64,000 bases of DNA from Ignavibacterium sp. (lineage in GTDB: Bacteria > Bacteroidota > Ignavibacteria > Ignavibacteriales > Ignavibacteriaceae). Shown one piece after another: positions 6,008 through 21,145 of this stretch. Every line of letters begins with the position of its first letter. Position 1 is the first letter of the stretch. The notes beneath the pieces are model-generated. The model was not told where the DNA came from, searched no databases, and saw nothing but the letters and a program-made list of their open reading frames with translations. The translations under genes and the position numbers were made by a program. The stretch is from positions 1,640,903-1,704,902 of the forward strand of contig JAVSMP010000001.1 of NCBI GenBank assembly GCA_032027145.1. Direction: 5' to 3'.

Positions 6008-6538
6008 CTAATGTTTGTAACCTTCAACTTTTGAGATGCAGTTACGGCAAAAAGTGCTTCCTTTAATATCTACTTCTTCGATTCCTGGCGATGAGTGCAT
6101 TACACAATCCCAATCAATACAATGACGCAGCCCGTAACAATGCCCTAATTCATGAAGAAATTCCTTAATAGTTCGTTCCAATAAAAGATTATCATTAGAA
6201 ATTCCGGAATAAAATTCCTCATGTAAACGGCAGACAGACAGAAGAGCATGCTTCCCATTTAGCTGTGCTTCTCCAAAAATAAATGTTAACACCGGAACAA
6301 AAATATCAACATCAGTTAACATGATTATTTTACCATCAAGATTATCGGTAAGCTTTATGGCTTCTGCTATTATTTGTGTAGAAAAGTATTGTTTGCGATC
6401 AACAGAAAAAAAATCATCAAGATTAATATTCAGGTCAACAATGTGAATTTTTGCTGAGAATCTTTTTGTTAATTCTGTTATAAGATTTTGCAAAAGCAAG
6501 TTGTTGTAAAATCTGAGTGGAGCGAGAAAAATATCCAT
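6008..6538 (-). CDS. Archaemetzincin-like zinc metalloprotease
   Basis: Small cytosolic metallopeptidase of about 176 residues. The diagnostic archaemetzincin motif is complete: HELGHCYGLRHC (the HExxHxxGxxHC core), then CVMHSSPGIEEVD with the Met-turn, then CRNC closing the structural zinc site. The family occurs mainly in archaea and sporadically in bacteria, and its physiological substrates are poorly known. I chose the ATG at 6538 over a TTG three bases upstream because it forms a TGATG overlap with the stop codon of the preceding sigma-54 regulator gene. That implies translational coupling and membership in the sensor-kinase/regulator operon. Confidence 0.88.
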   Translation of the reverse strand: MDIFLAPLRFYNNLLLQNLITELTKRFSAKIHIVDLNINLDDFFSVDRKQYFSTQIIAEAIKLTDNLDGKIIMLTDVDIFVPVLTFIFGEAQLNGKHALLSVCRLHEEFYSGISNDNLLLERTIKEFLHELGHCYGLRHCIDWDCVMHSSPGIEEVDIKGSTFCRNCISKVEGYKH

Positions 6539-7893
6539 CAATAATCATTTTTGCTGAGGTTGTACTTATTAATTTTATTGTAAAGTGTAACCCTGTCAAT
6601 CTCAAGTATCTGTGCAGCTTTAGAAATATTCCATCCATTTTCATTTAATGTATTCAGAATAAACCTCTTTTCCATAGAGGCAAGGCTTTTTATCTCACCG
6701 TTTAATGCTAAATTATTACTTGAAAGATGGAAGGGAAGGTCTTCAACCATAATAGAATTAGTTTTACCGACCACCATTGCTCTTTCTATTGCATTTTCCA
6801 ATTCTCTTACGTTTCCGGGCCAATTATAATTCATCAAAAAGTCCAGTGCTTCTTTAGAAACGGTTTTAACTTTTTTATTCATAGCTGTTGAAAACTTTTT
6901 TATAAAAAAATTAACAAGTAAAGGAATATCATCTCTTCTTTCACGCAAAGGCGGAATAACGATTGTAAAAACATTTAGTCTATAGTACAGGTCTTCTCTG
7001 AATTTACCAGCTTTAACAAGCTCCTCCAACGGTTCATTTGTAGCAGTGATTACTCTGAAATCACTTTTTATTAATTCATTTCCGCCAACTCTGTTAAATT
7101 GCTTTTTTTCAATAACTCTTAATAGTTCAACCTGCATCTTAGGAGAGATAGAGCCTATTTCGTCAAGAAAAATCGTTCCTCTGTCAGCCATTTCGAATTT
7201 ACCTTTTCTTTTGAACTGAGCGCCTGTAAAAGATCCTTTTTCATGTCCGAACAACTCGCTTTCAAGTAGAGTCTCTGATAAAGCTCCGCAGTTTACTGTA
7301 ATAATCGGAAAATATTTTCTGCTGCTGTTTATATGCACTGCTTTCGCAATTAATTCTTTTCCTGTACCGCTTTCACCCCTGATAATAACAGTTGTATCAG
7401 TAATTGCAACGCTGTAAACAAGTTCGTAAACTTTCCGCATCTGATAACTCTCACCAATCAGGTTATCAGGTTTAATTATTTCATCAATACTTTCTTTTAA
7501 CTGAATGTTTTCAATTTTCAATGCTCTTTGTTCAAGTGCTTTTCTGACAGTATGAGCAAGCTCATCGGGATCAACTGGCTTTGTTATATAATCAAAAGCG
7601 CCATTTTTAAGTGCTGTAATCGCAGTCGGTACTGAAGCAAAAGCAGTTATCAGAATTACAAGTGCATCTTTATCAATCTCTTTAACTTTTGATAACAGAT
7701 CAAGTCCACTCATACCCGGCATTTTCATATCAACGAGCAGAACATCATATTTTCCCTTTTCAAATTTTTGTAAGGCAGTTTCACCATCTTCAGCGGTTTC
7801 AACCTCATAATTATCTTCTTCAAACCAGTGAAAGAGAGATTCCCTTACTATTTTTTCATCATCTACTACAAGTATTTTTTCTCTTTTAGCCAT
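6538..7893 (-). CDS. Sigma-54-dependent response regulator (NtrC family)
   Basis: Transcription activator of 451 residues. A receiver domain comes first (acidic pocket in VVDDEK, phosphoacceptor Asp in LLVDMKMPGMSG, Lys in YITKPVD). The AAA+ domain has Walker A GESGTGKE, the sigma-54 contact loop GSFTGA (usual GAFTGA with Ala to Ser), Walker B TIFLDEIG and the PPLRERRDDIPLL motif. A Fis-type helix-turn-helix closes the protein (NISKAAQILEIDRVTLYNKI). The ATG at 7893 with an upstream AAGAGA is preferred over a TTG 18 bases upstream. The gene follows the sensor kinase 11 bases after its stop, which makes the two a cognate pair. Its likely target is the sigma-54 promoter at 13352-13367. Confidence 0.95.
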   Translation of the reverse strand: MAKREKILVVDDEKIVRESLFHWFEEDNYEVETAEDGETALQKFEKGKYDVLLVDMKMPGMSGLDLLSKVKEIDKDALVILITAFASVPTAITALKNGAFDYITKPVDPDELAHTVRKALEQRALKIENIQLKESIDEIIKPDNLIGESYQMRKVYELVYSVAITDTTVIIRGESGTGKELIAKAVHINSSRKYFPIITVNCGALSETLLESELFGHEKGSFTGAQFKRKGKFEMADRGTIFLDEIGSISPKMQVELLRVIEKKQFNRVGGNELIKSDFRVITATNEPLEELVKAGKFREDLYYRLNVFTIVIPPLRERRDDIPLLVNFFIKKFSTAMNKKVKTVSKEALDFLMNYNWPGNVRELENAIERAMVVGKTNSIMVEDLPFHLSSNNLALNGEIKSLASMEKRFILNTLNENGWNISKAAQILEIDRVTLYNKINKYNLSKNDY

Positions 7894-7904
7894 AAATATT
7901 TCTC

Positions 7905-9497
7905 TTAACAAAGTTGTTTGTTTTGTGGTAATGTAATTTTAAATGTTGTTCCCTCAGATGAAGTTTTTTCAACTTCAATTTTGCCGCTATGATTGGCAAT
8001 AATTCCATAAGCAACAGCAAGACCTAATCCGGTACCGGAAGATTGTGTTTTAGTTGAATAAAATGGATCAAAAATATGCGGAAGGTCATTATCGGCAATT
8101 CCTGTTCCTTCATCTATTACCCTAAGAATGACATTACTTTTTTCTGTAGTTAAATTAATTGTAATTTTTCCGCCGTTAGGCATTGCTTCGATAGAGTTTA
8201 TTAATAGAGAAATTAATGCCTGCTGAATTTTATTTGCATTGCAGTACACTTCGATTGGTTCATCAGGATAATCTCTAACTAAAGTAATACCATTAATCTC
8301 AAGATGATGGTTTATTACTGTAACACTGTGGTAAATTATTTTTAACAGATTTTCTTTTGCAAATTCATCACGTTCAGAATGAGAGAAAATCAGCAAGTCT
8401 TTCACAATTTGACCGCAGCGGGCAGATTCGTGTGAGATCAATTCCAGATATTCAATAATTTTGGAATTCTCAGAATTGTTATCTGAAGACTGCAATTTTT
8501 TTGTTATCAGTTTGCTGTAGGTTAAAATTCCTGCAAGCGGATTATTCAGCTCGTGTGCAACAGTTGCAGAAAGTTTTCCAAGTGAAGCGAGTTTTTCAAT
8601 TTGATTTACCTGATTGTAAATATTTTTAAGTTCTTCTGTCTTTTCATTTACTTTGTCATTCAGAGTTTCTGACCAGTTTTTAATTTCTTTATATGCTTCA
8701 GCAAGATTTTTTGACATTTCATTAAATCTGCGGGCTACTTGTCCAAGCTCATTTTTAGCCTGTATCTGAATTCTATAATCTAAATTTCCGTTTCCTACAG
8801 CTTCAATTCCTTCTTTAATTATTTTTAGTGGTTTATTAACCAGAACCGTTATAAAAAATCCTGTGGAAAGTGAAATAACAATTATCAGAAACACTGAAGC
8901 AAAAATTACTTTAGTTCTACTCTCCTCGATGATTTTATCAAGTGAATCTAACGAAACACCAACATCAAGAACACCCAGAATATTAACATTTTCCGGATGA
9001 GCATGACAATCAGCATTTGAGCAGTCAGGTTCATTCATAATTGGATTGATAAGACCAAGCACACGTTTATTTTCTGAATTCTTATATACTCTGATTTTAT
9101 CTTTATTTGCCAAACTTTGCAGCGGCACAGAGCTGTTATGACAGACAATACAAGCCTCTGCTTTCAGATCGACTTTTTTCAGAATTTCCGAAGTATCTGT
9201 TGAGTAACTAATTATGCCTTGTTTGTTGTAAATGCGAATTTCTTCAACTCCCCTTAAAGTGCGAAGAGTATTAATTATTGCATGAACCTCTTCGGGTCGG
9301 TCTAGCAGCATATCATGGCGAGTTGATTTTTTTATTATTTCGCTTATGTTGTAGGAAGTCTGAAATCTTGAAGCGGTCAAATAATTATTCAGATTATTTA
9401 AAATAAAGTACGTGTAAACTGAAAGAAGGATTATCAGAATAGAAGAGAGGGAAAAGATGAGTCGAACACTTAGTTTGTTAAAGACTTTTGGTTTCAT
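7905..9497 (-). CDS. Sensor histidine kinase with periplasmic c-type heme motifs (HK1)
   Basis: Membrane kinase of 530 residues. A first transmembrane helix (about 12-34) leads to a periplasmic sensor of about 160 residues. A second helix (about 197-220), a HAMP domain, the phosphoacceptor H-box (VAHELNNPLAG, His315) and a HATPase domain with DEGTGIAD and GTGLGLA follow. The sensor has CIVCH (116-120), a standard heme c site, and CSNADCH (159-165), a CX4CH variant. Both lie in the exported region where covalent heme attachment can occur. Heme-bound sensing of redox state or a gas is inferred. The paralogous kinase at 17262-19130 has both motifs in the same places. It pairs with the sigma-54 regulator just downstream. 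Confidence 0.92.
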   Translation of the reverse strand: MKPKVFNKLSVRLIFSLSSILIILLSVYTYFILNNLNNYLTASRFQTSYNISEIIKKSTRHDMLLDRPEEVHAIINTLRTLRGVEEIRIYNKQGIISYSTDTSEILKKVDLKAEACIVCHNSSVPLQSLANKDKIRVYKNSENKRVLGLINPIMNEPDCSNADCHAHPENVNILGVLDVGVSLDSLDKIIEESRTKVIFASVFLIIVISLSTGFFITVLVNKPLKIIKEGIEAVGNGNLDYRIQIQAKNELGQVARRFNEMSKNLAEAYKEIKNWSETLNDKVNEKTEELKNIYNQVNQIEKLASLGKLSATVAHELNNPLAGILTYSKLITKKLQSSDNNSENSKIIEYLELISHESARCGQIVKDLLIFSHSERDEFAKENLLKIIYHSVTVINHHLEINGITLVRDYPDEPIEVYCNANKIQQALISLLINSIEAMPNGGKITINLTTEKSNVILRVIDEGTGIADNDLPHIFDPFYSTKTQSSGTGLGLAVAYGIIANHSGKIEVEKTSSEGTTFKITLPQNKQLC

Positions 9498-9651
9498 ATA
9501 ATCTGTTAACCTTGTTGCTCAAAGTTAGATAATACTTTAAATATTTACAATCTACCTGATGTTTAATAATGGTATTAGAAATGCAGATGTTTATTAGATA
9601 GTGTAAGATATTTATTACTTAACAGAATTGTGAAAATTATAATAAATATTC

Positions 9652-10371
9652 TTATAAGTTTAAGGAGTTTAAAATATTCAAATATTTTTTTCTGCCGATA
9701 AGTTGATGAAGAAACTTAATTTGGGTCCCGCCATCCATCATTGTTTCGCCAACAGCAGGAACCTTTGTTTTAATTTCTTCTATAGCTCTGATAGCTTTAG
9801 AGTGGATGATATTCCATTGTTCCTGATTTAATCTGGAATTAAGAACTTCTGATTGATTAGCACCCATAATAGCAAACCATTGTGATTTTAACGGGTTATC
9901 TGCAGGGTCACCAACCTCATTGTAGATTATGAAGTTTATTGGGGAAGTAATATTAAAACTTCCCCAATCACCATTAAATTGTATTATCGGCTGATCCATA
10001 GAAATGCTTTTCCTGCATTCACAAACAATTGTTGAGTTTACACTATCAATAAAACTTTTCCAAATGGGATTAATACCAAGATAAAATGTATTAGCACATA
10101 TCTCCTTAGCAATAAGATTATTTCTTAAATATATGATATTGGTTTCATACTTAATGCTCTGTAGTTTATTGAAGATTGCATTTACAGCATTTACTATTCC
10201 GCCCAGCTTTGTTTCGTTTTCATCAGAAAGATTTCTGATAACTTTGTCAAATGGACAGTTTTCGCAATCAAAATTATTATCACATAATTTGTAATCAATA
10301 ACTCCTGAGGTCATCCAGATGCACTTTAGCATCTCATATCTGTTTGATTTCAACTCAATATCACTATTCAT
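9652..10371 (-). CDS. Degenerate H-protein-like protein with Cys motif and ETM-x-DGG tail
   Basis: Soluble 239-residue protein in three parts. The N-terminal part has a Cys cluster (C17, C30, C36, C39; YKLCDNNFDCENCPFDK) that could bind a metal or act in redox chemistry. The middle (about 95-170) is a divergent glycine-cleavage H-like barrel: TFYLGINPIWKSF matches the strand before the H-protein core, and GDWGSFNITSPINFIIYNEVGD aligns with the lipoyl hairpin and the SPVSG-VxxVN segment of H proteins, but there is no lipoyl-lysine. The tail has GETMMDGGTQ followed by a Leu-rich helix, as in the H-like protein at 12348-13019. It is last in the five-gene leftward operon, 4 bases after the NrfD stop. 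I recognise the architecture but no established function. Confidence 0.68.
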   Translation of the reverse strand: MNSDIELKSNRYEMLKCIWMTSGVIDYKLCDNNFDCENCPFDKVIRNLSDENETKLGGIVNAVNAIFNKLQSIKYETNIIYLRNNLIAKEICANTFYLGINPIWKSFIDSVNSTIVCECRKSISMDQPIIQFNGDWGSFNITSPINFIIYNEVGDPADNPLKSQWFAIMGANQSEVLNSRLNQEQWNIIHSKAIRAIEEIKTKVPAVGETMMDGGTQIKFLHQLIGRKKYLNILNSLNL

Positions 10372-10375
10372 ATTA

Positions 10376-11584
10376 TTAACTTATTGTTATTGGTTCTGTT
10401 TTAGCGATGTCTTTTTCATTAGTTGAATGTTCATGTTCTTCGTCAATAAAAACAGCAAAGTATTTTGCTACCATTCTGAAAGCGAATATTGCAAGAACAA
10501 TGAGCATCAATGTAATACTGATTTCATCAAATGATGGAAAATAACTTACCCCTGAAGATGCAGCTAATCCTGTTATACTAACATTTATTCTGTTCAGTAT
10601 AAGTCCTGAGATTACACATATTGAGATTATGTACAACCATTTTTTATCTTCTCTTAATTTTTTATAACTGAGCAGGTAAATCGGTACAATAGTGCCGAGT
10701 AATATTTCCAGGTAGAAAAGATATGTTTCAGTTGATGGAACAGTTAATAAATATAACTTACCATTATCAATAAAATCATAAATCTTTAACAATAAGCCCG
10801 CTATTAAAGCTATTAAAACAGCAAAGGCAGCTCCTGATAAAATATTCATTTTTAAACCGGTATTCTGAAAACCTTCTTCTTTTGTCAAACCTCTGGCGAT
10901 TAAAAATGATTCAAAAATTATCATCGATAAACCTGCGGCAATACAAGAAACATAAAAATGAACCGGCAATAAAGATGAATACCATAATGGATGTAATTTC
11001 CCGGGAACTATCAGATATAAAGAACCAAAGGATGATTGGTGAAGTGTTGAAAATAAAACACCAATTATAACAACCGGGATTGAAATCGCTTTAAGAATTT
11101 TAATTGGCGCTTTTATATTGAACTTTTCAAGTACAACCGGGGCAAATTCTAATAACAGTACAGTGGAATAACAAATTAAGCACCAGGTAATCTCAAACAT
11201 TACAGAGTGAATGTTCCACATATAAAGCGGATGATAAAAGTGTTCCGGCCTTCCGAGATCAACTATTAACAAGCAGACAACAACTGAGTAACCTAAAAAG
11301 GCAGTTAGAATTGCCGGTCTTACTAGTGGTTCATATTTATGTAAGTTGAAGATGTGAACAGTTGCGGCAATAGTAAAACCGGCAGCAGCTAATCCAACTC
11401 CGATAAAATCAAATCCTATCCATAAACCCCATGGAACTGTATCCTGCAAATTAGTTGTTGCGCCTAATCCTTGTGTAAACCTAAAATAAGTTGAAAATAA
11501 ACCAACTATAACAATTATAGCCGAAGTTATTTTCCAAAAAGTAGGTCTTAAGATTTCATTTATATTAATATTCTTAATTTTCAT
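10376..11584 (-). CDS. NrfD/PsrC-type quinone-interacting membrane subunit (module 1)
   Basis: Polytopic membrane protein of about 402 residues with around ten hydrophobic segments. It belongs to the NrfD/PsrC/HybB family, which exchanges electrons between the quinone pool and an Fe-S partner. Family-typical features include PWGLWIGFDFIGVGLAAAGF early, VDLGRPEHFYHPLYMWN and STLHQSSFGSLYLI in mid-protein, and FPSFDEISITLMLI near the end. I chose the ATG at 11584, preceded by GAGAG, over a TTG 24 bases upstream, leaving a short overlap with the Fe-S subunit gene. It is a paralogue of the protein at 14799-16043. The acidic C-terminal tail is probably cytoplasmic. The likely role is quinol oxidation or quinone reduction together with the 4Fe-4S subunit. 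Confidence 0.9.
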   Translation of the reverse strand: MKIKNININEILRPTFWKITSAIIVIVGLFSTYFRFTQGLGATTNLQDTVPWGLWIGFDFIGVGLAAAGFTIAATVHIFNLHKYEPLVRPAILTAFLGYSVVVCLLIVDLGRPEHFYHPLYMWNIHSVMFEITWCLICYSTVLLLEFAPVVLEKFNIKAPIKILKAISIPVVIIGVLFSTLHQSSFGSLYLIVPGKLHPLWYSSLLPVHFYVSCIAAGLSMIIFESFLIARGLTKEEGFQNTGLKMNILSGAAFAVLIALIAGLLLKIYDFIDNGKLYLLTVPSTETYLFYLEILLGTIVPIYLLSYKKLREDKKWLYIISICVISGLILNRINVSITGLAASSGVSYFPSFDEISITLMLIVLAIFAFRMVAKYFAVFIDEEHEHSTNEKDIAKTEPITIS

Positions 11585-12332
11585 TTTTACTTCTCTCTTC
11601 TTTAGCAATTTTATTTTTCCTTTTAGTCAGCCAATACATTCCGCCTAAGAATATGCCGCCGCCGACAACTACAGATGGAATTTTTTCCATTGCTCTTTTT
11701 GTAAACTCAGGCATTGCTTCTTTTGGTAGTTCAGGGATGTAGCCTAATTGTTCAAATGGTACCGGTGAAAGAACCAGCACATGACCTCCGCCTGCTTCTT
11801 CAAGTCCGTATATATGCTGATAGTATTTATCAGGATTTTCCTGAAGTCTTCTTTTGGCAATTGCAATCAGTTGATCCATATCTCCGTATAAAGTTGCTTC
11901 ATTAGGACAGGATTCTGCACAAGCTGGTATAAGCCCGTTACTGACACGCTCAGCGCACATATTACATTTTCTGATGCGGGGAGTTGTTGTTCCCCATTCG
12001 TAACGAGGAATTTTATGAGGGCAAGCCTGCATACAATATCTGCAGCCGATACACTTATCAGCATCATAAACTACAGCGCCTGTTGTTGTTTTTGTTATTG
12101 CACCGACGAGGCAAACTGATTCGCATGCCGGTTCGTTGCAGTGCATACACATTTTTCTTGCATATAAATCATCATATTGTTCGATTACATTAAATGTATT
12201 ATCTGAGAGATGATCCTTTAGAAAATCTTCACTTGTTTTCGGAAGATTATTAGCTTCTTTACACGCATCATAACAGGAACCACATCCTATACAAAGCGTT
12301 ACATCAAATAGTATTCCTTTTTCTTTTAACAT
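11574..12332 (-). CDS. 4Fe-4S ferredoxin-type electron-transfer subunit without Tat signal (module 1)
   Basis: Electron-transfer subunit of 252 residues of the HybA/DmsB/PsrB class. Four cysteine groups for four cubane clusters are visible: CIGCGSCYDAC, CMHCNEPACESVC, CIGCRYCMQAC and CNMCAERV...CAESC. The C-terminus has a single membrane helix (about 220-238, VVVGGGIFLGGMYW) and a basic tail. There is no twin-arginine leader: the first cluster motif starts within 20 residues of the Met. The clusters are therefore predicted on the cytoplasmic side, in contrast with the Tat-bearing paralogue at 13894-14802. It is encoded between the H-like protein and the NrfD subunit, with which it should form a complex. 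Confidence 0.9.
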   Translation of the reverse strand: MLKEKGILFDVTLCIGCGSCYDACKEANNLPKTSEDFLKDHLSDNTFNVIEQYDDLYARKMCMHCNEPACESVCLVGAITKTTTGAVVYDADKCIGCRYCMQACPHKIPRYEWGTTTPRIRKCNMCAERVSNGLIPACAESCPNEATLYGDMDQLIAIAKRRLQENPDKYYQHIYGLEEAGGGHVLVLSPVPFEQLGYIPELPKEAMPEFTKRAMEKIPSVVVGGGIFLGGMYWLTKRKNKIAKEERSKNEN

Positions 12333-12347
12333 TTGCTTTACCTGTAA

Positions 12348-13019
12348 CTATAATGAGAGAAATTCTTTTTCAAAATCACTTGTACTTTTATCAACTAATG
12401 AATAGAGCATATCGTTAGATAATGTACCTCCATCAAACATAGTTTCGCCAGCTAATTCTGGTTTAAGTGCATGTGTGTCTAAAAAACTTTTTAATTTCAT
12501 GTATTCTTTTTTAATCCAATTAACAGCATCATTTCCTGAGAAAAACTTTTCCCGATTCTCAGAAAAATCTTTTGAAAGTAACTGAACTCCCCAGTTTTGG
12601 TACGGATCAGAAATATTTTTGCTTATAATATCTGAGTTAACTGATTGAACGGTACCGCTAACAGGGGATAGAAATTTTACTTTATTATTTCCATAAGCGC
12701 CTTCAAATAAAATGTCTCCGCGCTTAATCGTTTTTCCTACAAAGGCACTGTTTAATATTGTTAATGTGCCCAATGCGTTAATTCCGAATTCATCAATTCC
12801 AATATTTACTAATCCGTTTTCATCCTCTTTAAGCCAGGTATGTCCTTTTGAAACGAAAGTATTTTGAGGAATAATAAATCTGTTTTTCTCAAACATTGAT
12901 AAATCAAATTGGGAGAATGATGGCTCAAACGCAGGATGATATTTCCCCTGAAATTTTAGTACGACGAGATCAACTAAAACAAAAAATAAAAATGCTGTCA
13001 AAACAAAAATCGCTACCAT
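12348..13019 (-). CDS. Membrane-anchored H-protein-like protein lacking the lipoyl-lysine
   Basis: A 223-residue protein. Residues 1-22 form a membrane anchor with a buried Asp17, very like the anchors of the proteins at 13054-13314 and 19985-21145. Residues about 52-150 form a glycine-cleavage H-like barrel (KGHTWLKEDENGLVNIGIDEFGINALG, then SPVSGTVQSVN). True H proteins carry a lipoylated Lys seven residues before the Ser of SPVSG; here that position is Asn in a GNN turn, so lipoylation as in glycine cleavage is unlikely. The C-terminus has GETMFDGGT (191-199) and a Leu-rich helix. It is second in the leftward operon, 15 bases from the Fe-S gene. A structural or signalling role in the redox complex is inferred. 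Confidence 0.82.
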   Translation of the reverse strand: MVAIFVLTAFLFFVLVDLVVLKFQGKYHPAFEPSFSQFDLSMFEKNRFIIPQNTFVSKGHTWLKEDENGLVNIGIDEFGINALGTLTILNSAFVGKTIKRGDILFEGAYGNNKVKFLSPVSGTVQSVNSDIISKNISDPYQNWGVQLLSKDFSENREKFFSGNDAVNWIKKEYMKLKSFLDTHALKPELAGETMFDGGTLSNDMLYSLVDKSTSDFEKEFLSL

Positions 13020-13053
13020 AGTATTTCCTTTTTTTATAATTCACTTTAATTTT

Positions 13054-13314
13054 TTATTGATTTTTAGTTGAGCTATCATCTTCTGTGATATTCTCACTAT
13101 TGTTAGTTTCTTTTGACTTTTCGTCATCGTGCGGCTGCCCGCCGTCATACATTGTTTCGCTTGCAAGCTTAAGTGTAGGATCAAACTTTGACGCAAAGGG
13201 TTTTGAAACTTTATTTTTCTTATATGAACCTGAAGCTAATGGGTCAATTACAAATCTGACTAATAAATCAACCCCGATAAAAACTGCAACTAATACTATT
13301 AAAAATGTAAGCAT
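13054..13314 (-). CDS. Small membrane-anchored protein with ETMYDGG motif
   Basis: An 86-residue protein and first gene of the leftward operon. It has an N-terminal membrane helix (residues 2-20) with Asp16 inside the hydrophobic run, a basic linker, the motif ASETMYDGGQ (51-60) and a polar acidic C-terminus. The anchor and the motif both match the neighbouring H-like protein, so it looks like that protein with the barrel removed. A strong ribosome-binding site (AGGAG) and a sigma-54 promoter lie just upstream. There is no known family that I recognise. A role as an assembly or docking subunit of the NrfD/Fe-S complex is inferred from position. Confidence 0.72.
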   Translation of the reverse strand: MLTFLIVLVAVFIGVDLLVRFVIDPLASGSYKKNKVSKPFASKFDPTLKLASETMYDGGQPHDDEKSKETNNSENITEDDSSTKNQ

Positions 13315-13893: not shown

Positions 13894-14802
13894 ATGTCTG
13901 GCAAAAGTCGCCGAGATTTCCTTAAAAAATCTGCTTTTGTTGGGGCAGGAATAGCCGGGCTTTCCACCTCATCCGCTAAAGCAGGTCCTAAAAATATTTT
14001 ATCCGAAGATCGAATGGGTGTTTTAGTTGATACGACTGTTTGTATTGGCTGCCGTCAGTGTGAGTGGGCTTGTAAAGAAGCTCATGATTTACCCGCAGGT
14101 GATCTTGAGTCTTACAAAAATCGTGATGTGTTTGATAATATGAGAAGACCTGATCATACTGCATTAACCGTTGTTAATGAGTATTCGCCGGGCAAAAATT
14201 CAAATCTTCCTGTTGATGTAAAAGTTCAATGTATGCACTGCGATCATCCTGCCTGTGTATCTGCTTGTATTGTTGGTGCATTTACCAAACATGAAAATGG
14301 CGCAGTAACCTGGGATACTGATATGTGCATTGGCTGCCGATATTGTATGGCTGCTTGTCCGTTTCAGATTCCTGCTTTTGAATATGACAAAGCATTGAAT
14401 CCAAAAATTATGAAATGTGATTTCTGCTATGACCGTACAAAAGAAGGGAAGCTGCCGGCTTGTGTCAGCATCTGTCCGGTTGAAGCCCTTACATACGGAA
14501 GCAGAACAGAGCTTATCAAAATTGCCCGTGAGAGGATAAAGAGAAATCCGGATAGATATGTTGATCATATTTTTGGAGAATATGAAGTAGGTGGAACATC
14601 ATGGTTGTATCTGGCTGGTAAAGATTTTGCAGAACTTGATTTTCCTAAACTTGGAAATAATCCTGCACCGGGGGTTTCGGAATCAATTCAACATGGAATA
14701 TTTGCATACTTCGTTCCACCGGTTTCTTTATATGCTCTTTTAGGCGGTATAATGTGGATTACAAAACGCCGCAAAGAACTTGATGAGGAGGAAAAATTAT
14801 GA
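13894..14802 (+). CDS. Tat-exported 4Fe-4S electron-transfer subunit (module 2)
   Basis: Electron-transfer subunit of 302 residues. The N-terminus carries a twin-arginine signal (SRRDFLKKSAFVGAGIAG, residues 5-22), so the Fe-S domain should be folded in the cytoplasm and exported. Four cluster motifs follow: CIGCRQCEWAC, CMHCDHPACVSAC, CIGCRYCMAAC and CDFCYDRT...CVSIC. A C-terminal membrane helix (about 272-290) with a basic end anchors it. The start is supported by AAAGGA upstream of the ATG. Its stop overlaps the NrfD start (ATGA), and the 13-heme cytochrome gene follows. The trio resembles the Fe-S/NrfD/multiheme menaquinol oxidoreductases known from Geobacter (Cbc type) and Desulfovibrio. 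It is paralogous to 11574-12332. Confidence 0.92.
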   Translation: MSGKSRRDFLKKSAFVGAGIAGLSTSSAKAGPKNILSEDRMGVLVDTTVCIGCRQCEWACKEAHDLPAGDLESYKNRDVFDNMRRPDHTALTVVNEYSPGKNSNLPVDVKVQCMHCDHPACVSACIVGAFTKHENGAVTWDTDMCIGCRYCMAACPFQIPAFEYDKALNPKIMKCDFCYDRTKEGKLPACVSICPVEALTYGSRTELIKIARERIKRNPDRYVDHIFGEYEVGGTSWLYLAGKDFAELDFPKLGNNPAPGVSESIQHGIFAYFVPPVSLYALLGGIMWITKRRKELDEEEKL

Positions 14803-16043
14803 GTCACGATTCTTACAATCCAGTACCGATAAAACGTAAATATTTTACTCCGGGAGTAATTGGATTGATTGTTATTGCAGTAAATGGATTAATCTTTTTA
14901 ATGGGCAGATTTTTCTTTGGCATTGGAGCAGTTACAAATCTAAATAATCAATATCCCTGGGGCTTGTGGATTGGAGTTGATGTGGCTGCCGGTGTAGCGC
15001 TTGCTGCCGGTGGGTTTACTACTGCGGCTTTGGGTCATATTATTCATAAAGAAGAATATCACGCAATTGTTAGACCAGCACTTCTTACAGCAATGTTAGG
15101 CTATACATTTGTTGCTCTTGGAGTGTTTGTTGATATCGGAAGATGGTATTTTATCTGGCATCCGCTGATTATGTGGAATGGTAGTTCAGCCTTGTTTGAG
15201 GTTGGTATTTGTGTTATGATTTATCTGACAGTTCTTTACATCGAATTTTTACCAATAGTTACTGAAAGATTTATCGGAAAAGTTAATCTTCCCGGATTTC
15301 TTTCAGGATTAAACAAACCTGTTGATAAACTTTTAAGAGCCCTTGATCGTGGTCTTTCAAAAACAATGTTCATTTTCATTATTGCCGGCGTTGTACTTTC
15401 TACACTGCATCAATCTTCATTAGGAACATTAATGATTATCGCAGGTCCAAAGATGCATCCGCTATGGCAAACACCGATACTGCCTTTGCTCTTTTTACTT
15501 TCTGCAATTTCAGTTGGGTTTCCAATGGTTATTTTTGAATCTTTAATTGCTTCAAGATCATTAGGGCTAAAACCTGAGATGCATGTTCTTTCCAGATTAG
15601 GTTCAATGATTCCGCCTTTGTTGGGAATTTATTTAGCATTTAAGATCGGCGATATGTTTATACGCGAAACTTTTGTTTACTTAGCCGAATTTAATACCGC
15701 AAGTGTTATGTTTACAATTGAGGTGCTGTTTGGAGTAATAATTCCATTAAGAATGCTTTTATCTACTAAAGTGCTGAAATCGCCGCTGTTTCTTTTTATT
15801 GCATCTTCTTTAGTTGTATTTGGTGTTTTAATAAACAGGATAAACAATTTTGTTGTAGCCTACACTCCGCCGTATTCTTCAGACTCATATTTCCCGTCGT
15901 TCGGTGAAATTTCTGTTACACTCGGGTTTGTAGCAATGCTTGTACTTGCCTACCGGTTTATTGTTCTTAATTTTCCGGTTATCAGTTTACCAGGAAAGAC
16001 ATCAGCACCTAAAACAAAATATACGATAAGGGGAATAAAATGA
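14799..16043 (+). CDS. NrfD/PsrC-type quinone-interacting membrane subunit (module 2)
   Basis: Polytopic protein of 414 residues with about ten membrane segments. The family landmarks are PWGLWIGVDVAAGVALAAGG, VDIGRWYFIWHPLIMWN, STLHQSSLGTLMII and FPSFGEISVTLGF. All are shared with the paralogue at 10376-11584, so one module probably arose by duplication of the other. It is expected to pass electrons between menaquinol and the Fe-S subunit, which in this module lies on the periplasmic side. It overlaps both neighbours by four bases (ATGA), indicating tight co-translation with the Fe-S subunit and the cytochrome. Confidence 0.92.
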   Translation: MSHDSYNPVPIKRKYFTPGVIGLIVIAVNGLIFLMGRFFFGIGAVTNLNNQYPWGLWIGVDVAAGVALAAGGFTTAALGHIIHKEEYHAIVRPALLTAMLGYTFVALGVFVDIGRWYFIWHPLIMWNGSSALFEVGICVMIYLTVLYIEFLPIVTERFIGKVNLPGFLSGLNKPVDKLLRALDRGLSKTMFIFIIAGVVLSTLHQSSLGTLMIIAGPKMHPLWQTPILPLLFLLSAISVGFPMVIFESLIASRSLGLKPEMHVLSRLGSMIPPLLGIYLAFKIGDMFIRETFVYLAEFNTASVMFTIEVLFGVIIPLRMLLSTKVLKSPLFLFIASSLVVFGVLINRINNFVVAYTPPYSSDSYFPSFGEISVTLGFVAMLVLAYRFIVLNFPVISLPGKTSAPKTKYTIRGIK

Positions 16044-17191
16044 TGAAGAAAATAATTACTCTTTTATTGGTCTTATTTATAATAATTACGATTAAACCCC
16101 AGCAAAATCCGGGTAAAAATCATTCTAAGTTAAATATCGAGTGCAGTACTTGTCACATTTGTGATGTTCCAACAAAAAAGGATCCGTGTCTTGTTCAGTG
16201 TCCGCGGGAGAAAATAAAAACTGTATATCAAAAACCCGAACAAACTCCGGAGTTAATCACCATAAATCAGCTGAGTGATAAATACGGTCCGGTTTATTTT
16301 TCTCATAGAATTCACGCACAAATGTCCGAGATGAGCGGCGGCTGCGAAACCTGCCATCATCATAATACTTCAGCCTCAATTCTCAGATGCAGTAACTGTC
16401 ATTCATCGTCAAGAAATCGCGAGGATGTTAGTATCCCTGATTTGAAAGCTGCATTTCATAGACAATGTATGGATTGCCACCGTGAATGGAGTCACGATAA
16501 TGGGTGTAATACTTGTCATACACTTAAAAAAGATTTGAAAAACGGAAAGCAGGACAAAAATATTCAGAAGAAATATGCTGGAAAAAATCATCCTGTAGTT
16601 TTAGAACCAACCAAGTTAGTTTATGAAACAAATTCTGATAAAGGTAAGATTGTAACATTCTATCATGACGATCACACGAAAAAATTTGGATTGAAATGTA
16701 CAACCTGTCATAAACAAGAAAGCTGTACAAAGTGTCACGATGTTAATAGAAAAGAAAATAATAAACCTATTAAAGTAATTTCAAAGAAAACTTTTGAAGA
16801 TCAGCATAAGAATTGTATCAGTTGTCATAAGAAAACAGAAAGCTGCAGCAAATGCCATAGTAATAAAGTACTTGAGCCATTTGATCATGCTAAGAAGACA
16901 GGCTGGCCCTTGAATAAATATCATATCAACTTAACTTGTGTAAAGTGTCATGGCACAGCCCAGCCTTACAAAAAAGTTGATAATAAATGTTTGAGCTGTC
17001 ATAAATCCTGGCTTGATGGTAAATTCAAACACTCAGTAACCGGCTTACAACTGGACGAAATTCACATTGAGTTAAGCTGCGAAGACTGTCATAGCGATAA
17101 TAATTTTGCAGTTAAGCCAACTTGCAGCAGTTGTCACGATGATTATAGTTTCCCGAAACAAAAACCAGGAAAGGTTATTGGTAAAAAATAG
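16040..17191 (+). CDS. Periplasmic multiheme cytochrome c with 13 CXXCH motifs
   Basis: Exported cytochrome of 383 residues. A hydrophobic N-terminus (about 3-20) acts as signal peptide or anchor. Thirteen CXXCH heme-attachment motifs are countable: CSTCH, CETCH, CSNCH, CMDCH, CNTCH, CTTCH, CTKCH, CISCH, CSKCH, CVKCH, CLSCH, CEDCH and CSSCH. Free His residues in FSHRIH, FYHDDH and FDHAKKT patterns could be distal ligands, as in class III/c7-type cytochromes. The N-terminal region also has a short Cys cluster (CSTCHICD...CLVQC). Translationally coupled to the NrfD gene, it is the likely periplasmic electron exit or entry point of module 2. Confidence 0.92.
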   Translation: MMKKIITLLLVLFIIITIKPQQNPGKNHSKLNIECSTCHICDVPTKKDPCLVQCPREKIKTVYQKPEQTPELITINQLSDKYGPVYFSHRIHAQMSEMSGGCETCHHHNTSASILRCSNCHSSSRNREDVSIPDLKAAFHRQCMDCHREWSHDNGCNTCHTLKKDLKNGKQDKNIQKKYAGKNHPVVLEPTKLVYETNSDKGKIVTFYHDDHTKKFGLKCTTCHKQESCTKCHDVNRKENNKPIKVISKKTFEDQHKNCISCHKKTESCSKCHSNKVLEPFDHAKKTGWPLNKYHINLTCVKCHGTAQPYKKVDNKCLSCHKSWLDGKFKHSVTGLQLDEIHIELSCEDCHSDNNFAVKPTCSSCHDDYSFPKQKPGKVIGKK

Positions 17192-17198
17192 ATTTTGT

Positions 17199-17226
17199 CT
17201 GCAGGAATAAATTAAAATTCCTGCAG
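17199..17226 (+). terminator. Perfect hairpin between cytochrome and kinase genes
   Basis: CTGCAGGAAT / ATTCCTGCAG form a perfect 10-bp stem with an 8-base loop, 8 bases after the cytochrome stop. No clear T-run follows, so it may be a weak terminator, an mRNA-stabilising end or a processing site that sets apart expression of the structural and the signalling genes. Confidence 0.5.
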
Positions 17227-17261
17227 TATCTTATAAATATTTATCAGACTGTAAATTATAA

Positions 17262-19130
17262 ATGTTTAAGAAAATTGGTTTTCGTTTAATCTTTGCTGTT
17301 GCTTTTACTTCATTAGTAATAATCGGGGTGTTTGCTTTTTTTAATGTTCAAACTCAAAGCAACAACTTAACTGCAGAAGTTGAACGGCATGCAAATCAGT
17401 TAAGTGAAACAGTTGTATCTAGTACAAGGGTTGATATGATGCTCAATCAAAGAGACAGGATACAGCAGATTATCAGTTCAATCGGGGCACAACCGCATAT
17501 CAGGGATGTAAGGATACTGAATAAGATTGGTGAAATAATCTATTCATCTGATCAAAACAGTATAAATAAAATGGTTGATAAAAATGCTGAAAGCTGTTAT
17601 GCATGTCATGCAGAAGATAAACCACTTGAGCAAATCTCGATTACTGAGCGGACAAGGATATTTAAACTAAATCCTGATTCGGCAAGAATAATTGGGATCA
17701 TAACTCCTATCTATAACGAAACATCCTGCTGGACGGCTGAATGTCATGCGCATCCAAGTGATCAGAAGGTGCTGGGCGTTCTGGATATATCAATCTCTTT
17801 GGCAGAGGTTGATAAAGAAATTTTAAGATCAAAAATTGAAATAGTAATATTTGCTTTTGCTGCCGTTTTAATTGTGGGTTTAATTATTGGTTTATTTGTT
17901 AAAAGATGGGTTTCAAATCCGGTTAATGATCTTTTAAGTGCAACACAACAAATAAGCGCAGGTAATTTGAATTACGCAATTAAAGAAATCAGCAGCGATG
18001 AAATTGGTAAGCTTGCTTCTTCTTTCAATAATATGACAAAAAAATTAGCTGAAGCACGTTTACAATTATTTCAATCGGATAAAATGGCATCTTTGGGCAG
18101 ATTAGCTGCAGGTGTTGCACACGAAATAAATAATCCTTTAACAGGTGTACTTACTTACAGCAGTTTTTTGCTTAAAAGGACTAAAGATAATCCTGAATTT
18201 CAGGAAGATCTTAAAGTGATCGTAAGAGAAACAATCAGAAGCAGAGAGATTGTTAAAAGCCTTTTAGATTTTGCTAGACAGTCAGTACCAAAAAAGAATC
18301 CGGCTGATTTGAACGATGTTGTTGATAAAGCGATTTCAGTTGTTGAAAATCAATTATCAATCAAAAAAATAAAAGTAGAAAAAAAGTTAGAAGCAGATAT
18401 TCCTAAAATAACTATTGATTCAAATCAGATGGAGCAGGTATTTATCAACTTGTTTGTAAATGCCGCCGATGCTATGGAAAAGAGCGGAGGAATAATTACA
18501 GTTGCAACACAATTAATTTCTTTGGCACCTTTCGGTACAACTCAGATAAAAAAAGCAGCCTGCAGAAAAAGACATAATCTGATAGATAATGAATTTAAGA
18601 TTGGTGGGTTACCGGCAATCAAAGTAAAAGTTGTTTCTGATAATAATGAAGGAATAGTCCATATTGATCCGGTTTACGGAAAGCATTACAATAATTATAA
18701 CGTTGGGTTTAAAATAAATAAAAATGCAAAGTTTGTTTGTCCGGAATGCAGCGTTTCACTGGTGCAGGAAGATAAGTTATGTCCTAAATGCGGGGCACCT
18801 ATACTTGTATTTGATTTAGGACCCGAAGGTATTTATGAAGTTTGCTCTTCTGAAAACAGTGATTGGGAAAAATGGGATTATATTGAATCAGCCGGAACAC
18901 AGGAATATGTTGAAATAAAAGTTTCAGATTCCGGATGTGGAATCAGCAATGAAGACCTTCACAAAATCTTTGATCCTTTCTTTTCAACAAAAGGACAAAA
19001 GGGAAACGGACTCGGGCTTGCTGTAATCTGGGGTATTGTTGATAATCATAACGGAACAATTTCTGTGGATAGTGAAATAGGAAAAGGTACAACATTTAAA
19101 ATCAGGCTGCCTTTAACTCAACAAAGATGA
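17262..19130 (+). CDS. Heme-motif sensor histidine kinase with zinc ribbon inside the ATPase domain (HK2)
   Basis: Membrane kinase of 622 residues. Two transmembrane helices (about 9-28 and 193-213) enclose a periplasmic sensor with CYACH (112-116) and a CX4CH variant CWTAECH (156-162), the same arrangement as HK1. HAMP, the H-box (VAHEINNPLTG, His287) and a HATPase domain follow. Between the N-box (VNAADAMEKSGG, about 400-410) and the G-box (DSGCGIS, about 556) lies an extra segment of roughly 130 residues. It carries a CxxxH pair (C434, H438) and a four-Cys zinc ribbon (C493, C496, C507, C510). The insert may sense metal or redox state or bind a partner. The receiver/H-like gene starts 4 bases after the stop and probably encodes its partner. 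Confidence 0.92.
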   Translation: MFKKIGFRLIFAVAFTSLVIIGVFAFFNVQTQSNNLTAEVERHANQLSETVVSSTRVDMMLNQRDRIQQIISSIGAQPHIRDVRILNKIGEIIYSSDQNSINKMVDKNAESCYACHAEDKPLEQISITERTRIFKLNPDSARIIGIITPIYNETSCWTAECHAHPSDQKVLGVLDISISLAEVDKEILRSKIEIVIFAFAAVLIVGLIIGLFVKRWVSNPVNDLLSATQQISAGNLNYAIKEISSDEIGKLASSFNNMTKKLAEARLQLFQSDKMASLGRLAAGVAHEINNPLTGVLTYSSFLLKRTKDNPEFQEDLKVIVRETIRSREIVKSLLDFARQSVPKKNPADLNDVVDKAISVVENQLSIKKIKVEKKLEADIPKITIDSNQMEQVFINLFVNAADAMEKSGGIITVATQLISLAPFGTTQIKKAACRKRHNLIDNEFKIGGLPAIKVKVVSDNNEGIVHIDPVYGKHYNNYNVGFKINKNAKFVCPECSVSLVQEDKLCPKCGAPILVFDLGPEGIYEVCSSENSDWEKWDYIESAGTQEYVEIKVSDSGCGISNEDLHKIFDPFFSTKGQKGNGLGLAVIWGIVDNHNGTISVDSEIGKGTTFKIRLPLTQQR

Positions 19131-19134
19131 TTAA

Positions 19135-19941
19135 ATGAATAAAACAGCTGATATATTAATTATAGATGATGAACAGGTTATAATAGATGCTGTATTAAAG
19201 ATTTGTGCGCTTGAAGATTATTCAGTTGATTTTGCTATTGGTACAAAAACCGGATTGGATAAAATTTCTAAAAACTTTTATCCGGTTATTATTTCTGATA
19301 TAATGATGCCTGATGGCGATGGATTTCAGATACTTGATGCTGTAAATAAATCTAAAAAAGATTCTGTTGTTATAATGACAACAGGATTTTCTACAGTTGA
19401 AAATGCAGTCAATTCACTTTATAAAGGTGCATTGAGTTTTATCCCAAAACCATTTACAGTTGATGAACTGTTAAGTGTTTTGTTCAGGGCAAAGAATTAT
19501 ATAAAAATAATAAGAGAAGAAAAATCTTTTTCGCCGCAGCAAAGGGATAAAGAATTAATTTATGTTACTTGTCCCGCAAAATATCTTCGTCTCGGAAATT
19601 CAACCTGGATAAATCAGGAAAGAGAAGGAAGTGTTTTTATTGGTATATGCGATATCTATATGAAAGCAATTGAATCAGTAAATAATATTGAGATGTTGCA
19701 GCCAGAGGATGAATTAATACAGGGAACTGGCTGTGCATCCTTGACAAGTAATGATGAAAGGATCCACAAAATTCTTGCACCTTTATCAGGAAGAATTATT
19801 GAAGTAAATAATAGTGTTATCAATAATCCATCCTTGCTGGAAAAAGACCCTTACTTCGAAGGCTGGTTATACAGGATAATACCAGCTAATTTGGATTATG
19901 AAATTAGATATTTAATACCTTGTAGTTCAGACAGGTTGTAA
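19135..19941 (+). CDS. Response-regulator receiver fused to a degenerate H-protein-like domain
   Basis: Soluble 268-residue protein. Residues 1-120 are a receiver (IIDDEQ acidic pair, phosphoacceptor Asp55 in IISDIMMPDGDG, Lys in FIPKPF). Residues about 140-245 form an H-protein-like barrel (YLRLGNSTWINQEREGSVFIG, then APLSGRIIEVN and DPYFEGWLYRI). The lipoyl-lysine hairpin is replaced by SNDERIHKI without an equivalent Lys seven residues before the APLSG segment. There is no DNA-binding domain, so phosphorylation by HK2 would act through protein contacts. It lies 4 bases after HK2 and 43 bases before a second, membrane-anchored fusion. Confidence 0.85.
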   Translation: MNKTADILIIDDEQVIIDAVLKICALEDYSVDFAIGTKTGLDKISKNFYPVIISDIMMPDGDGFQILDAVNKSKKDSVVIMTTGFSTVENAVNSLYKGALSFIPKPFTVDELLSVLFRAKNYIKIIREEKSFSPQQRDKELIYVTCPAKYLRLGNSTWINQEREGSVFIGICDIYMKAIESVNNIEMLQPEDELIQGTGCASLTSNDERIHKILAPLSGRIIEVNNSVINNPSLLEKDPYFEGWLYRIIPANLDYEIRYLIPCSSDRL

Positions 19942-19984
19942 TAACAGAAAAAGAAATTAAAATTTATACTTTAGGAGATACATT

Positions 19985-21145
19985 ATGCCACTTTTCATAT
20001 TAGCTATTGTCATTTTTATAATTGCTGATATTTTAATCCGGATGGTAAGCAAAAGAATGACAGAGCAAAAACAGAAAAAAGAACGTGAACAGGTTCTTCA
20101 GGAAAGTTTAAAGCTTGATTTTTCAAGTGAGGCTACAACATTAAAGCGGGCACAAGTTGATAATCCAAAAGCAAGAATACTATGTGTGGATGATGAAGAA
20201 GTAATACTTGGAAGCTTCAGAAAAATACTTGTGCTTGATGGTTATTCTGTTGATACTGTAGAAAACGGTCAGGAAGCACTTGGTTTAATTCAAAAGCATC
20301 ATTATGATTTTGTGTTTACTGATCTTAAAATGCCGATGATGGATGGTGTTGAAGTTTGTAAATCAGTAAAACATCTTCGCCCCGATATTGATGTAATAAT
20401 TATTACCGGCTATGCATCAATCGAAACAGCGGTTGAAACTATGAAATATGGTGCTTTAGATTATGTGGAAAAACCATTTACAGAAGATGAGCTGATTGAG
20501 TTTGTTAGAAAATCATTAATAAAGAGACAGGATAAAATTCAAAAGCAGTTAAAACCCAAAGTGCATATTACTCATTTACCTGCTTCAGATGATTTTATAC
20601 AAGGTGAGTTTTCAATTCCAGGTGGTGTTTTTATTGCAAAAAATCATACCTGGGTTAGTATGAATCAGGAAGGAATTGCAAAAGTGGGTATTGATGATTT
20701 TGCATTAAAATTAATCGGAAAAATTAGCTCATTAGAATTACCAAATTTGGGTATGACCATAAAAGCCGGTCAACCGTTGTTTACGATTAAACAAGGAAAC
20801 CGTACTGTAACATTTAATTCACCGGTTAGCGGAAAGGTTGCTCAGGTAAATACTCTGCTGCAGGATAATCTTGATTCGCTGGATATTACTCCTTATGAAC
20901 GTAATTGGGTATGTGCTCTTGATGCGGAAAATCTTGATAGTGAGATAAAAGAAATGACCATTGGAAAATCAGCCGTGTCTTTCTTTCAGGATGATATTGA
21001 AAAGTTTAAAGTAATGTTTATGGATTTATTAAAATCTGAAAAAAAATCGGATGAGTATCTTGAAGATGGATTGTTTATCGGACAGTTAGCCGACCTTACT
21101 GATGTAAACTGGAATAAAATTATTGCTGAGTTTTTTGTAAGATAA
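19985..21145 (+). CDS. Membrane-anchored receiver/H-protein-like fusion
   Basis: A 386-residue protein. The N-terminal membrane anchor (residues 1-21, buried Asp15) closely resembles the anchors at 12348-13019 and 13054-13314. A receiver follows (about 63-180, phosphoacceptor Asp113 in VFTDLKMPMMDG, Lys in VEKPFT). An H-like barrel spans about 212-320 (AKNHTWVSMNQEGIAKVGIDDFALKLIG, then NSPVSGKVAQVN). The lipoyl-lysine turn is QGNRT, so the site is lost. The tail (YLEDGLFIGQLADL...IIAEFF) looks like a weakened version of the DGG-plus-Leu-helix tail of the leftward H-like proteins. The ribosome-binding site is AGGAG. It probably docks at the membrane complex when phosphorylated; this is inferred. 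Confidence 0.85.
   Translation: MPLFILAIVIFIIADILIRMVSKRMTEQKQKKEREQVLQESLKLDFSSEATTLKRAQVDNPKARILCVDDEEVILGSFRKILVLDGYSVDTVENGQEALGLIQKHHYDFVFTDLKMPMMDGVEVCKSVKHLRPDIDVIIITGYASIETAVETMKYGALDYVEKPFTEDELIEFVRKSLIKRQDKIQKQLKPKVHITHLPASDDFIQGEFSIPGGVFIAKNHTWVSMNQEGIAKVGIDDFALKLIGKISSLELPNLGMTIKAGQPLFTIKQGNRTVTFNSPVSGKVAQVNTLLQDNLDSLDITPYERNWVCALDAENLDSEIKEMTIGKSAVSFFQDDIEKFKVMFMDLLKSEKKSDEYLEDGLFIGQLADLTDVNWNKIIAEFFVR

Follow-up and report, generated by a model that had tools for sequence, protein, structure and literature searches.

Receiver domains fused to H-protein-like domains beside an NrfD-type quinol:cytochrome module: candidate regulators acting by protein contact

Results

Gene content of the two modules

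The window, by which we mean the whole stretch of 64,000 nucleotides analysed here, carries on its plus strand an operon (13894-21145) of six genes:

13894-14802, plus strand: P0006, Fe-S subunit, HmcB/HybA-like, with Tat motif RRDFLKK and C-terminal membrane tail (Fer4_11, E 9.9e-21; sequence)
14799-16043, plus strand: P0005, NrfD-type membrane subunit, HmcC/HybB-like (PF03916, E 3.9e-19)
16040-17191, plus strand: P0004, multihaem cytochrome c, 13 CxxCH motifs counted by script (Cytochrom_CIII, E 1.1e-16)
17262-19130, plus strand: P0001, sensor kinase (HAMP, HisKA, HATPase_c; motifs)
19135-19941, plus strand: P0002, soluble receiver-H fusion (Pfam, predicted model, fold match)
19985-21145, plus strand: P0003, membrane-anchored receiver-H fusion (Pfam, predicted model, fold match)

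The Fe-S, NrfD-type and multihaem cytochrome genes stand together, which is the composition of an NrfD-type quinol:cytochrome module. The operon resembles the module described in the available part of PMC10924467, which combines a tail-anchored Fe-S protein, a HybB-like quinol oxidase and a multihaem cytochrome and in which an Fe-S protein with Tat signal and C-terminal tail is periplasmic; common to both are a single operon, a Tat/C-tail Fe-S protein, an NrfD/HybB-like subunit and a periplasmic multihaem cytochrome. It departs from the Hmc complex in that neither HmcE (NarI-like) nor HmcF was seen among the six genes, and in that the HmcB and HmcC equivalog cut-offs were missed (P0006 against NF045715, 345 bits with a cut-off of 420; P0005 against NF045714, 272 bits with a cut-off of 550); P0005 also scored 350 bits against NF008133, with a cut-off of 450.

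The coordinates of P0002 (268 aa, 19135-19941) and P0003 (386 aa, 19985-21145) were confirmed, and P0002 starts at 19135, directly behind the end of the kinase reading frame at 19130. Both proteins match Response_reg (E 4.7e-21 and 2.3e-31, respectively) and GCV_H (E 2.6e-17 and 6.2e-21) above the Pfam cut-offs; the scan of the two found nothing further above cut-off, and no DNA-binding or enzyme domain. P0003 has an N-terminal hydrophobic helix (residues 2-43 in its model) and P0002 has none; as the helix is followed by positive residues, the receiver and H domain of P0003 should lie in the cytoplasm. The predicted models have mean pLDDT values of 84.9 (P0003) and 91.8 (P0002) and match H proteins closely (P0003 with 3a8i_E, TM-score 0.92 by target length, rmsd 1.4; P0002 with 1htp, Z 20.7, rmsd 1.8 over 122 residues). 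An earlier note on this DNA had described two successive receiver-H (REC-H) genes behind a sensor kinase, one soluble and one anchored, with neither a helix-turn-helix nor an enzyme domain; coordinates, Pfam matches and models bear out both points.

The predicted periplasmic part of P0001 contains the motifs CYACH and CWTAECH, with which it would bind two periplasmic haems. Its ATPase domain holds a Zn-ribbon-like insert (CPEC...CPKC) of ~125 residues, at about residues 420-545.

On the minus strand lies a sister module (6538-13314):

13054-13314, minus strand: 86-aa membrane protein with a TMYDGG motif (sequence)
12348-13019, minus strand: membrane-anchored H domain without receiver (GCV_H, E 4e-10)
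11574-12332, minus strand: Fe-S subunit, no Tat motif found (Pfam, motif search)
10376-11608, minus strand: NrfD-type subunit (PF03916, E 1.2e-25)
9652-10371, minus strand: 239-aa probable soluble H-like protein, no Pfam match (profile comparison)
7905-9497, minus strand: kinase with the same two-haem sensor as P0001, no insert (Pfam, motifs)
6538-7911, minus strand: NtrC-type response regulator (Sigma54_activat, E 2.5e-68)

Both kinases (7905-9497 and 17262-19130) have a single CxxCH and a single CX4CH motif in the region predicted to be periplasmic. Receivers are found on the H proteins of the module at 13894-21145, and the sister module has an NtrC output and bare H proteins. For the 239-aa protein, a profile of six family members without a direct H match gave a probability of 95.7 against the anchored H profile (E 8.5e-9, 83 columns) and of only 26 against the soluble H profile; a family profile reached E 4.6e-35, but it included many rows already matching the H profile. 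The 9652-10371 protein is thus probably H-like, and the sister module would hold one anchored and probably one soluble H protein. A comparable gene set recurs: NrfD, Fe-S, same-sensor kinase and NtrC genes occur together in 17 of 27 loci with a stand-alone H gene, among the matches listed (loci without REC-H and outside a hand-listed NrfD-free set).

Three proteins of the sister module (9652-10371, 12348-13019 and 13054-13314) share a C-terminal TM[FYM]DGG. The broader tail motif T[MLI]xDG[GA] is present in 31 of 59 stand-alone H proteins among the matches listed, 29-35 residues from the end; elsewhere it was found in 1/22 of the hand-listed NrfD-free set, 4/11 of the 239-aa family and 0/135 REC-H proteins, with a background of 5/1875 other ORFs of at least 200 aa and an average of 0.14/59 in shuffles. 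A second pattern, LCxxx[FYW]xCxxCx[FY], occurs in 7/59 stand-alone H proteins (7/26 of those not anchored), 7/22 of the NrfD-free set and 4/6 of the 239-aa family, and in 0/135 REC-H proteins and 1/2513 other ORFs; its core LCxxx[FY]xCxxC, a possible metal site, is seen in the soluble stand-alone H proteins 9652-10371, L285:8794-9723 and L288:8193-10195. A peptidase M54-like gene (6008-6541) lies directly behind the NtrC gene.

Loss of the lipoyl lysine

With the genome's true GcvH as reference, the lipoyl column holds N in P0003 and D in P0002, whose stretch has one extra residue and where a count backwards from the turn lands on E. Among the matches listed, lysine occupies this column in 9 of 216 H-like domains as against 17 of 17 short GcvH ORFs; the nine comprise 7/132 REC-H and 2/59 stand-alone H domains, and the hand-listed NrfD-free loci contribute none (0/22 stand-alone H, 0/3 REC-H). 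The 59 are the "H in NrfD loci" left after setting aside 16 hand-listed loci, and include L136, L137, L154 and L283 (no NrfD in the stretch examined) and L041:1 (a cut REC-H); not counted among the 216 are 11 more long ORFs in small loci, each of them without K. In an enlarged set, lysine was present in 9/89 anchored-class and 0/63 soluble-class domains (among the matches listed, duplicates included), a score-based sorting that misplaced L280:11336 and L310:5873 and was later replaced by sorting on a hydrophobic stretch before the receiver. The window's own genome has four GCV_H matches, one the true GcvH and three within the 64-kb window.

P0002 and P0003 share fold and family profile with GcvH (PF01597) but differ in being fused to a receiver, and P0003 also to a membrane helix, and in having no lipoyl lysine; both also miss the NCBIfam GcvH cut-off (NF002270, 117 bits), at 64.3 bits for P0002 and 70.6 for P0003. 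Because that lysine is absent, the H domain of P0002 and P0003 is a non-catalytic version of H protein. LbpA of Hdr-like sulfur oxidation offers a parallel, as an H-protein relative serving a redox pathway other than glycine cleavage, but its lipoate-binding lysine, strictly conserved in 95 aligned LbpA proteins according to the available part of PMC6067878, is the residue missing here.

Conservation of the receivers

We aligned 136 receivers from 135 REC-H proteins (P0003 numbering, among the matches listed). The acidic pair is retained (D69 is D in 130/136 and E in 4 more; D70 is D in 133/136), as are the phosphoacceptor D113 (D in 133/136), the T141 column (T in 132/136, S in 3) and the K163 column (K in 135/136). 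The earlier note's statement that the phosphoacceptor Asp and the Lys are kept thus extends to five phospho-site columns in nearly all 136 receivers, and by this measure the receivers of REC-H proteins look functional. Over 22 matched loci, mean pairwise identity was 76.1% for the anchored receiver (lowest 63.9%), 48.0% for the anchored H domain, 48.5% for the soluble receiver and 43.3% for the soluble H domain; in subsets of these loci it was 49.0% for NrfD (16 loci), 54.2% for the Fe-S protein (15) and 55.0% for the kinase (16). The anchored receiver is the best conserved of the parts compared, and binding on several of its faces would explain this.

REC-H loci in other genomes

Loci were gathered with peptide patterns from P0003 and profiles of the P0003 and P0002 H domains, the matches being listed and partly fetched. 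After two duplicates had been removed by their identical C-terminal parts, 83 distinct loci were counted, on long stretches only and with close species counted apart; the script placed some ORF starts too early (e.g., L055 and L256). The survey of further REC-H fusions and their neighbours that the earlier note had proposed shows a strong tie to NrfD and Fe-S genes: an NrfD gene is present in 73 of the 83 distinct loci among the matches listed, as compared with three NrfD genes in the entire genome from which the window comes, although the sample leans to close kin of P0003 and 73/83 is not an unbiased rate. The distance from REC-H to NrfD is at most 3354 bases (73 distinct loci, 69 with NrfD, among the matches listed), and NrfD, Fe-S and same-sensor kinase genes occur together in 67 of 75 loci, two duplicates included, among the matches listed. 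Being located together in this way, the genes show a common process but do not identify a binding partner.

The two types of fusion behave differently. Anchored fusions (84 genes in 76 loci, among the matches listed) are accompanied by NrfD in 72 loci, and the remaining four (L033, L044, L053 and L318) lie on contigs ending inside or beside the module, so that among fetched loci with readable flanks we found no anchored fusion without NrfD. Soluble fusions have NrfD in 53 of 62 loci among the matches listed (L057, one of the 53, is a fragment); of the nine others, three are truncated (L033, L044, L318), two lie on ~7 kb contigs (L310, L311), and four show no NrfD in 19 kb (L280, L309, L312, L313). 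The neighbours of the soluble REC-H gene and its haem-sensor kinase in L309 (7339-15733) are a cytochrome b (PF00033, E 1.5e-53) and three multihaem cytochromes, one of which has a NapC/NirT region at its N terminus; this looks like another kind of quinol:cytochrome cluster. The three REC-H genes of L280 adjoin two genes that resemble HdrA and HdrB by Pfam, one for a large FAD/Fe-S protein and one for a protein with a CCG domain, and a haem-sensor kinase and NtrC are nearby. The kinases of L312 and L313 carry PAS domains and lack the haem motif, and L313 has an adjacent radical SAM gene. NrfD is likewise missing around some stand-alone H-like genes. In reality NrfD-free loci probably make up more than 10/83, because such soluble fusions surfaced mainly with the profile of P0002.

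The earlier note had held that fusions occurring independently of NrfD modules would count against it. Soluble fusions do so occur, in the four loci just described, and the claim that the fusions are tied to NrfD modules only fails on them; for the anchored type no such case was seen. Soluble REC-H is a response regulator of wider use, with a redox complex adjoining in two of the four NrfD-free cases. A broad reading in which every REC-H acts on NrfD is given up; the narrower one, with P0003 serving the NrfD complex, stands.

In 75 of the 83 loci the distance from a REC-H gene to a kinase gene is at most 300 bases; in 3 it is larger, and in 5 no kinase was seen (among the matches listed). Counting neighbours within 250 bases of same-sensor kinases (duplicates included, among the matches listed, L280 placed under NtrC), we found 66 with REC-H and no NtrC, 21 with NtrC and no REC-H, none with both and 7 with neither. 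A script search for the insert with its CxxC-CxxC pattern, on the same terms, found it in 44 of the 66 kinases next to REC-H, in 0 of the 21 next to NtrC and in 2 of the 7 with neither neighbour, 5 being without it; L030, an incomplete ORF scored as lacking the insert, has the pattern. The insert was rejected as a necessary marker of REC-H output, since it is missing from the majority of REC-H kinases in G317's phylum (Acidobacteria-titled).

Taxonomic spread and origin

Relatives of P0003 among the matches listed come from records titled Ignavibacteria, Chlorobiota, Bacteroidetes, Calditrichota/Calditrichaceae, Acidobacteria, Myxococcales (one record) and Krumholzibacteriia (one record), and from several Gammaproteobacteria (Chromatiales, Xanthomonadales, Lysobacterales, Woeseiaceae); many are metagenome bins whose titles may be wrong. 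By record titles, the REC-H/NrfD set is present in at least four phyla. At E 1e-50 P0003 has a match in 11 of 21 genomes among the window's relatives, its own included. Around the gammaproteobacterial G310 the H profile matched in 17 of 249 genomes, with long ORFs only in G310 and ORFs of 126-174 aa in the other 16, and around G317 it matched in 57 of 199. Each of the 17 stretches with fusions fetched from the latter's phylum has Fe-S, NrfD and same-sensor kinase genes, and none of the 17 has an NtrC gene. In the phylum of G320 there are many stand-alone H-like genes, without the lipoyl lysine where read (L277:9104-12022, L278:7205-10609, L285, L290); some adjoin HdrA-like genes, and some of the ORFs reach 970-1130 aa.

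The anchored REC-H group, counting the cut L041:1, has support 94 in the H-domain tree without being starred, and it is nested within a starred group together with stand-alone H proteins of NrfD loci; because of this nesting the tree suggests that a receiver was added to a pre-existing H subunit. The same tree separates soluble from anchored REC-H, but holding all REC-H together was not rejected (p-AU 0.233); for the receiver tree the corresponding p-AU was 0.546, with only two anchored receivers left after thinning. Separate origins of the two fusion types are accordingly not claimed.

Discussion

The earlier note had named direct protein contact, controlling the respiratory complex after translation, as the likely output; we too consider control of the NrfD complex by predicted protein contact the best reading of these data. 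The best explanation we can offer in full, and one we place barely on the probable side, is that P0003 would control the complex from the cytoplasmic side, with P0002 as a soluble partner and the di-haem kinase upstream. To judge from its motifs, P0001 would sense redox state or a ligand through its two periplasmic haems, and gene order and the intact receiver sites suggest that it phosphorylates both P0002 and P0003; its output probably reaches the two receivers, because 66 same-sensor kinases adjoin REC-H without NtrC. The H-protein fold without its lipoyl lysine would serve as a binding surface, contact being the natural output because the dead carrier domain is the only part of these proteins besides the receiver. 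With P0003 held at the membrane, a change in phosphorylation could alter the activity, assembly or partner choice of the NrfD/Fe-S/cytochrome complex. P0002 would share this kinase as a soluble partner, and its target may be P0003, the complex or the kinase itself, a weaker step.

Because of its Tat motif and C-terminal tail, the Fe-S protein at 13894-14802 is probably periplasmic, and therefore any contact with P0003 would have to be made from the cytoplasm. With the Fe-S protein and the cytochrome both probably periplasmic, little cytoplasmic surface is left to bind; the parts of the complex reachable from the cytoplasm are NrfD loops and tails and the C-terminal tail of the Fe-S protein. 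In the 17 stretches from G317's phylum, the Tat motif is absent from the first 60 residues of the script-taken Fe-S ORFs, a difference that lies between lineages or is due to ORF starts as taken.

One could envision a more general arrangement in which a membrane-held REC-H docks on a respiratory quinol:cytochrome complex, where it gates electron flow in response to the state sensed by a di-haem kinase, in at least four phyla by record titles, replacing the transcriptional output seen in the sister module. We put this forward tentatively, its chances being somewhat below even.

Alternatively, the H-like domains could be assembly or stability subunits of redox complexes, with the receiver setting dimer formation or positioning and phosphorylation a minor input. 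The receiver-free H proteins of NrfD modules, often one anchored and one soluble, fit such a role, as do the H-like genes beside HdrA-like genes (by eye in L285 and L290; by Pfam in L280, where the H genes are of the REC-H type); the anchored receiver, best conserved of the parts compared and with its whole phospho-site intact, does not, and we regard this explanation as unlikely. REC-H might instead be a general type of response regulator whose H domain binds various partners, NrfD being one use and P0002 at least acting elsewhere. The soluble fusions of L309, L280, L312 and L313 are what this would predict, but wherever flanks are readable the anchored type is accompanied by NrfD, and the soluble type itself has NrfD in most loci (53/62 among the matches listed, with L057 a fragment), so we also give it a low probability.

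That the receivers are phosphate sinks tuning a neighbouring kinase/NtrC pair, with transcription still the final output, could be entertained in the window, where two same-sensor kinases lie close together and one has an NtrC partner; it is a poor fit to the 66 same-sensor kinases that adjoin REC-H without NtrC (among the matches listed) and to the NtrC-free stretches from G317's phylum (0/17 with the gene), and seems to us quite improbable. A working lipoyl carrier, to which the fold match of the two models would point, was ruled out as next to inconceivable, the lipoyl column being without lysine in the window proteins and most relatives.

Receivers without a DNA-binding output are known in CheY, Spo0F and Rrf1, which have a protein-binding or no output domain, and the REC-H receivers resemble them in this respect. 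If control of the NrfD complex through P0003 is real, REC-H would add a new output domain for response regulators and provide a case in which a haem-based sensor acts on a respiratory complex post-translationally rather than via gene expression. The literature searched, whose coverage leaves out most subscription journals, contained no paper on an H-protein fold as response-regulator output, and REC-H fusions are not described in the available parts of PMC6067878, PMC3534657, PMC5701242 and PMC10924467. The last of these, in the part available, describes no recurrent flanking genes for its three-gene module, mentions neither H-like nor receiver-H proteins, and gives rrf1 and rrf2 as regulators of hmc expression. 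For an NrfCD cluster of Melioribacter roseus, from a related organism group and with a like NrfC/NrfD pair, electron transfer from quinol to periplasmic multihaem cytochromes has been proposed, and the available text mentions no kinase or receiver-H genes (PMC3534657).

The two side-by-side modules of the window, one with NtrC and bare H proteins and the other with receivers on its H proteins, provide a built-in comparison through which the idea can be tested. The survey further indicates that H-protein relatives lacking the lipoyl lysine form a wide family, with members next to NrfD, cytochrome b and Hdr-like genes. Behind the REC-H module of L117-L121, L123, L125, L126, L130 and L316-L318 there are cytochromes with 16-19 CxxCH motifs, a hint of extracellular electron transfer.
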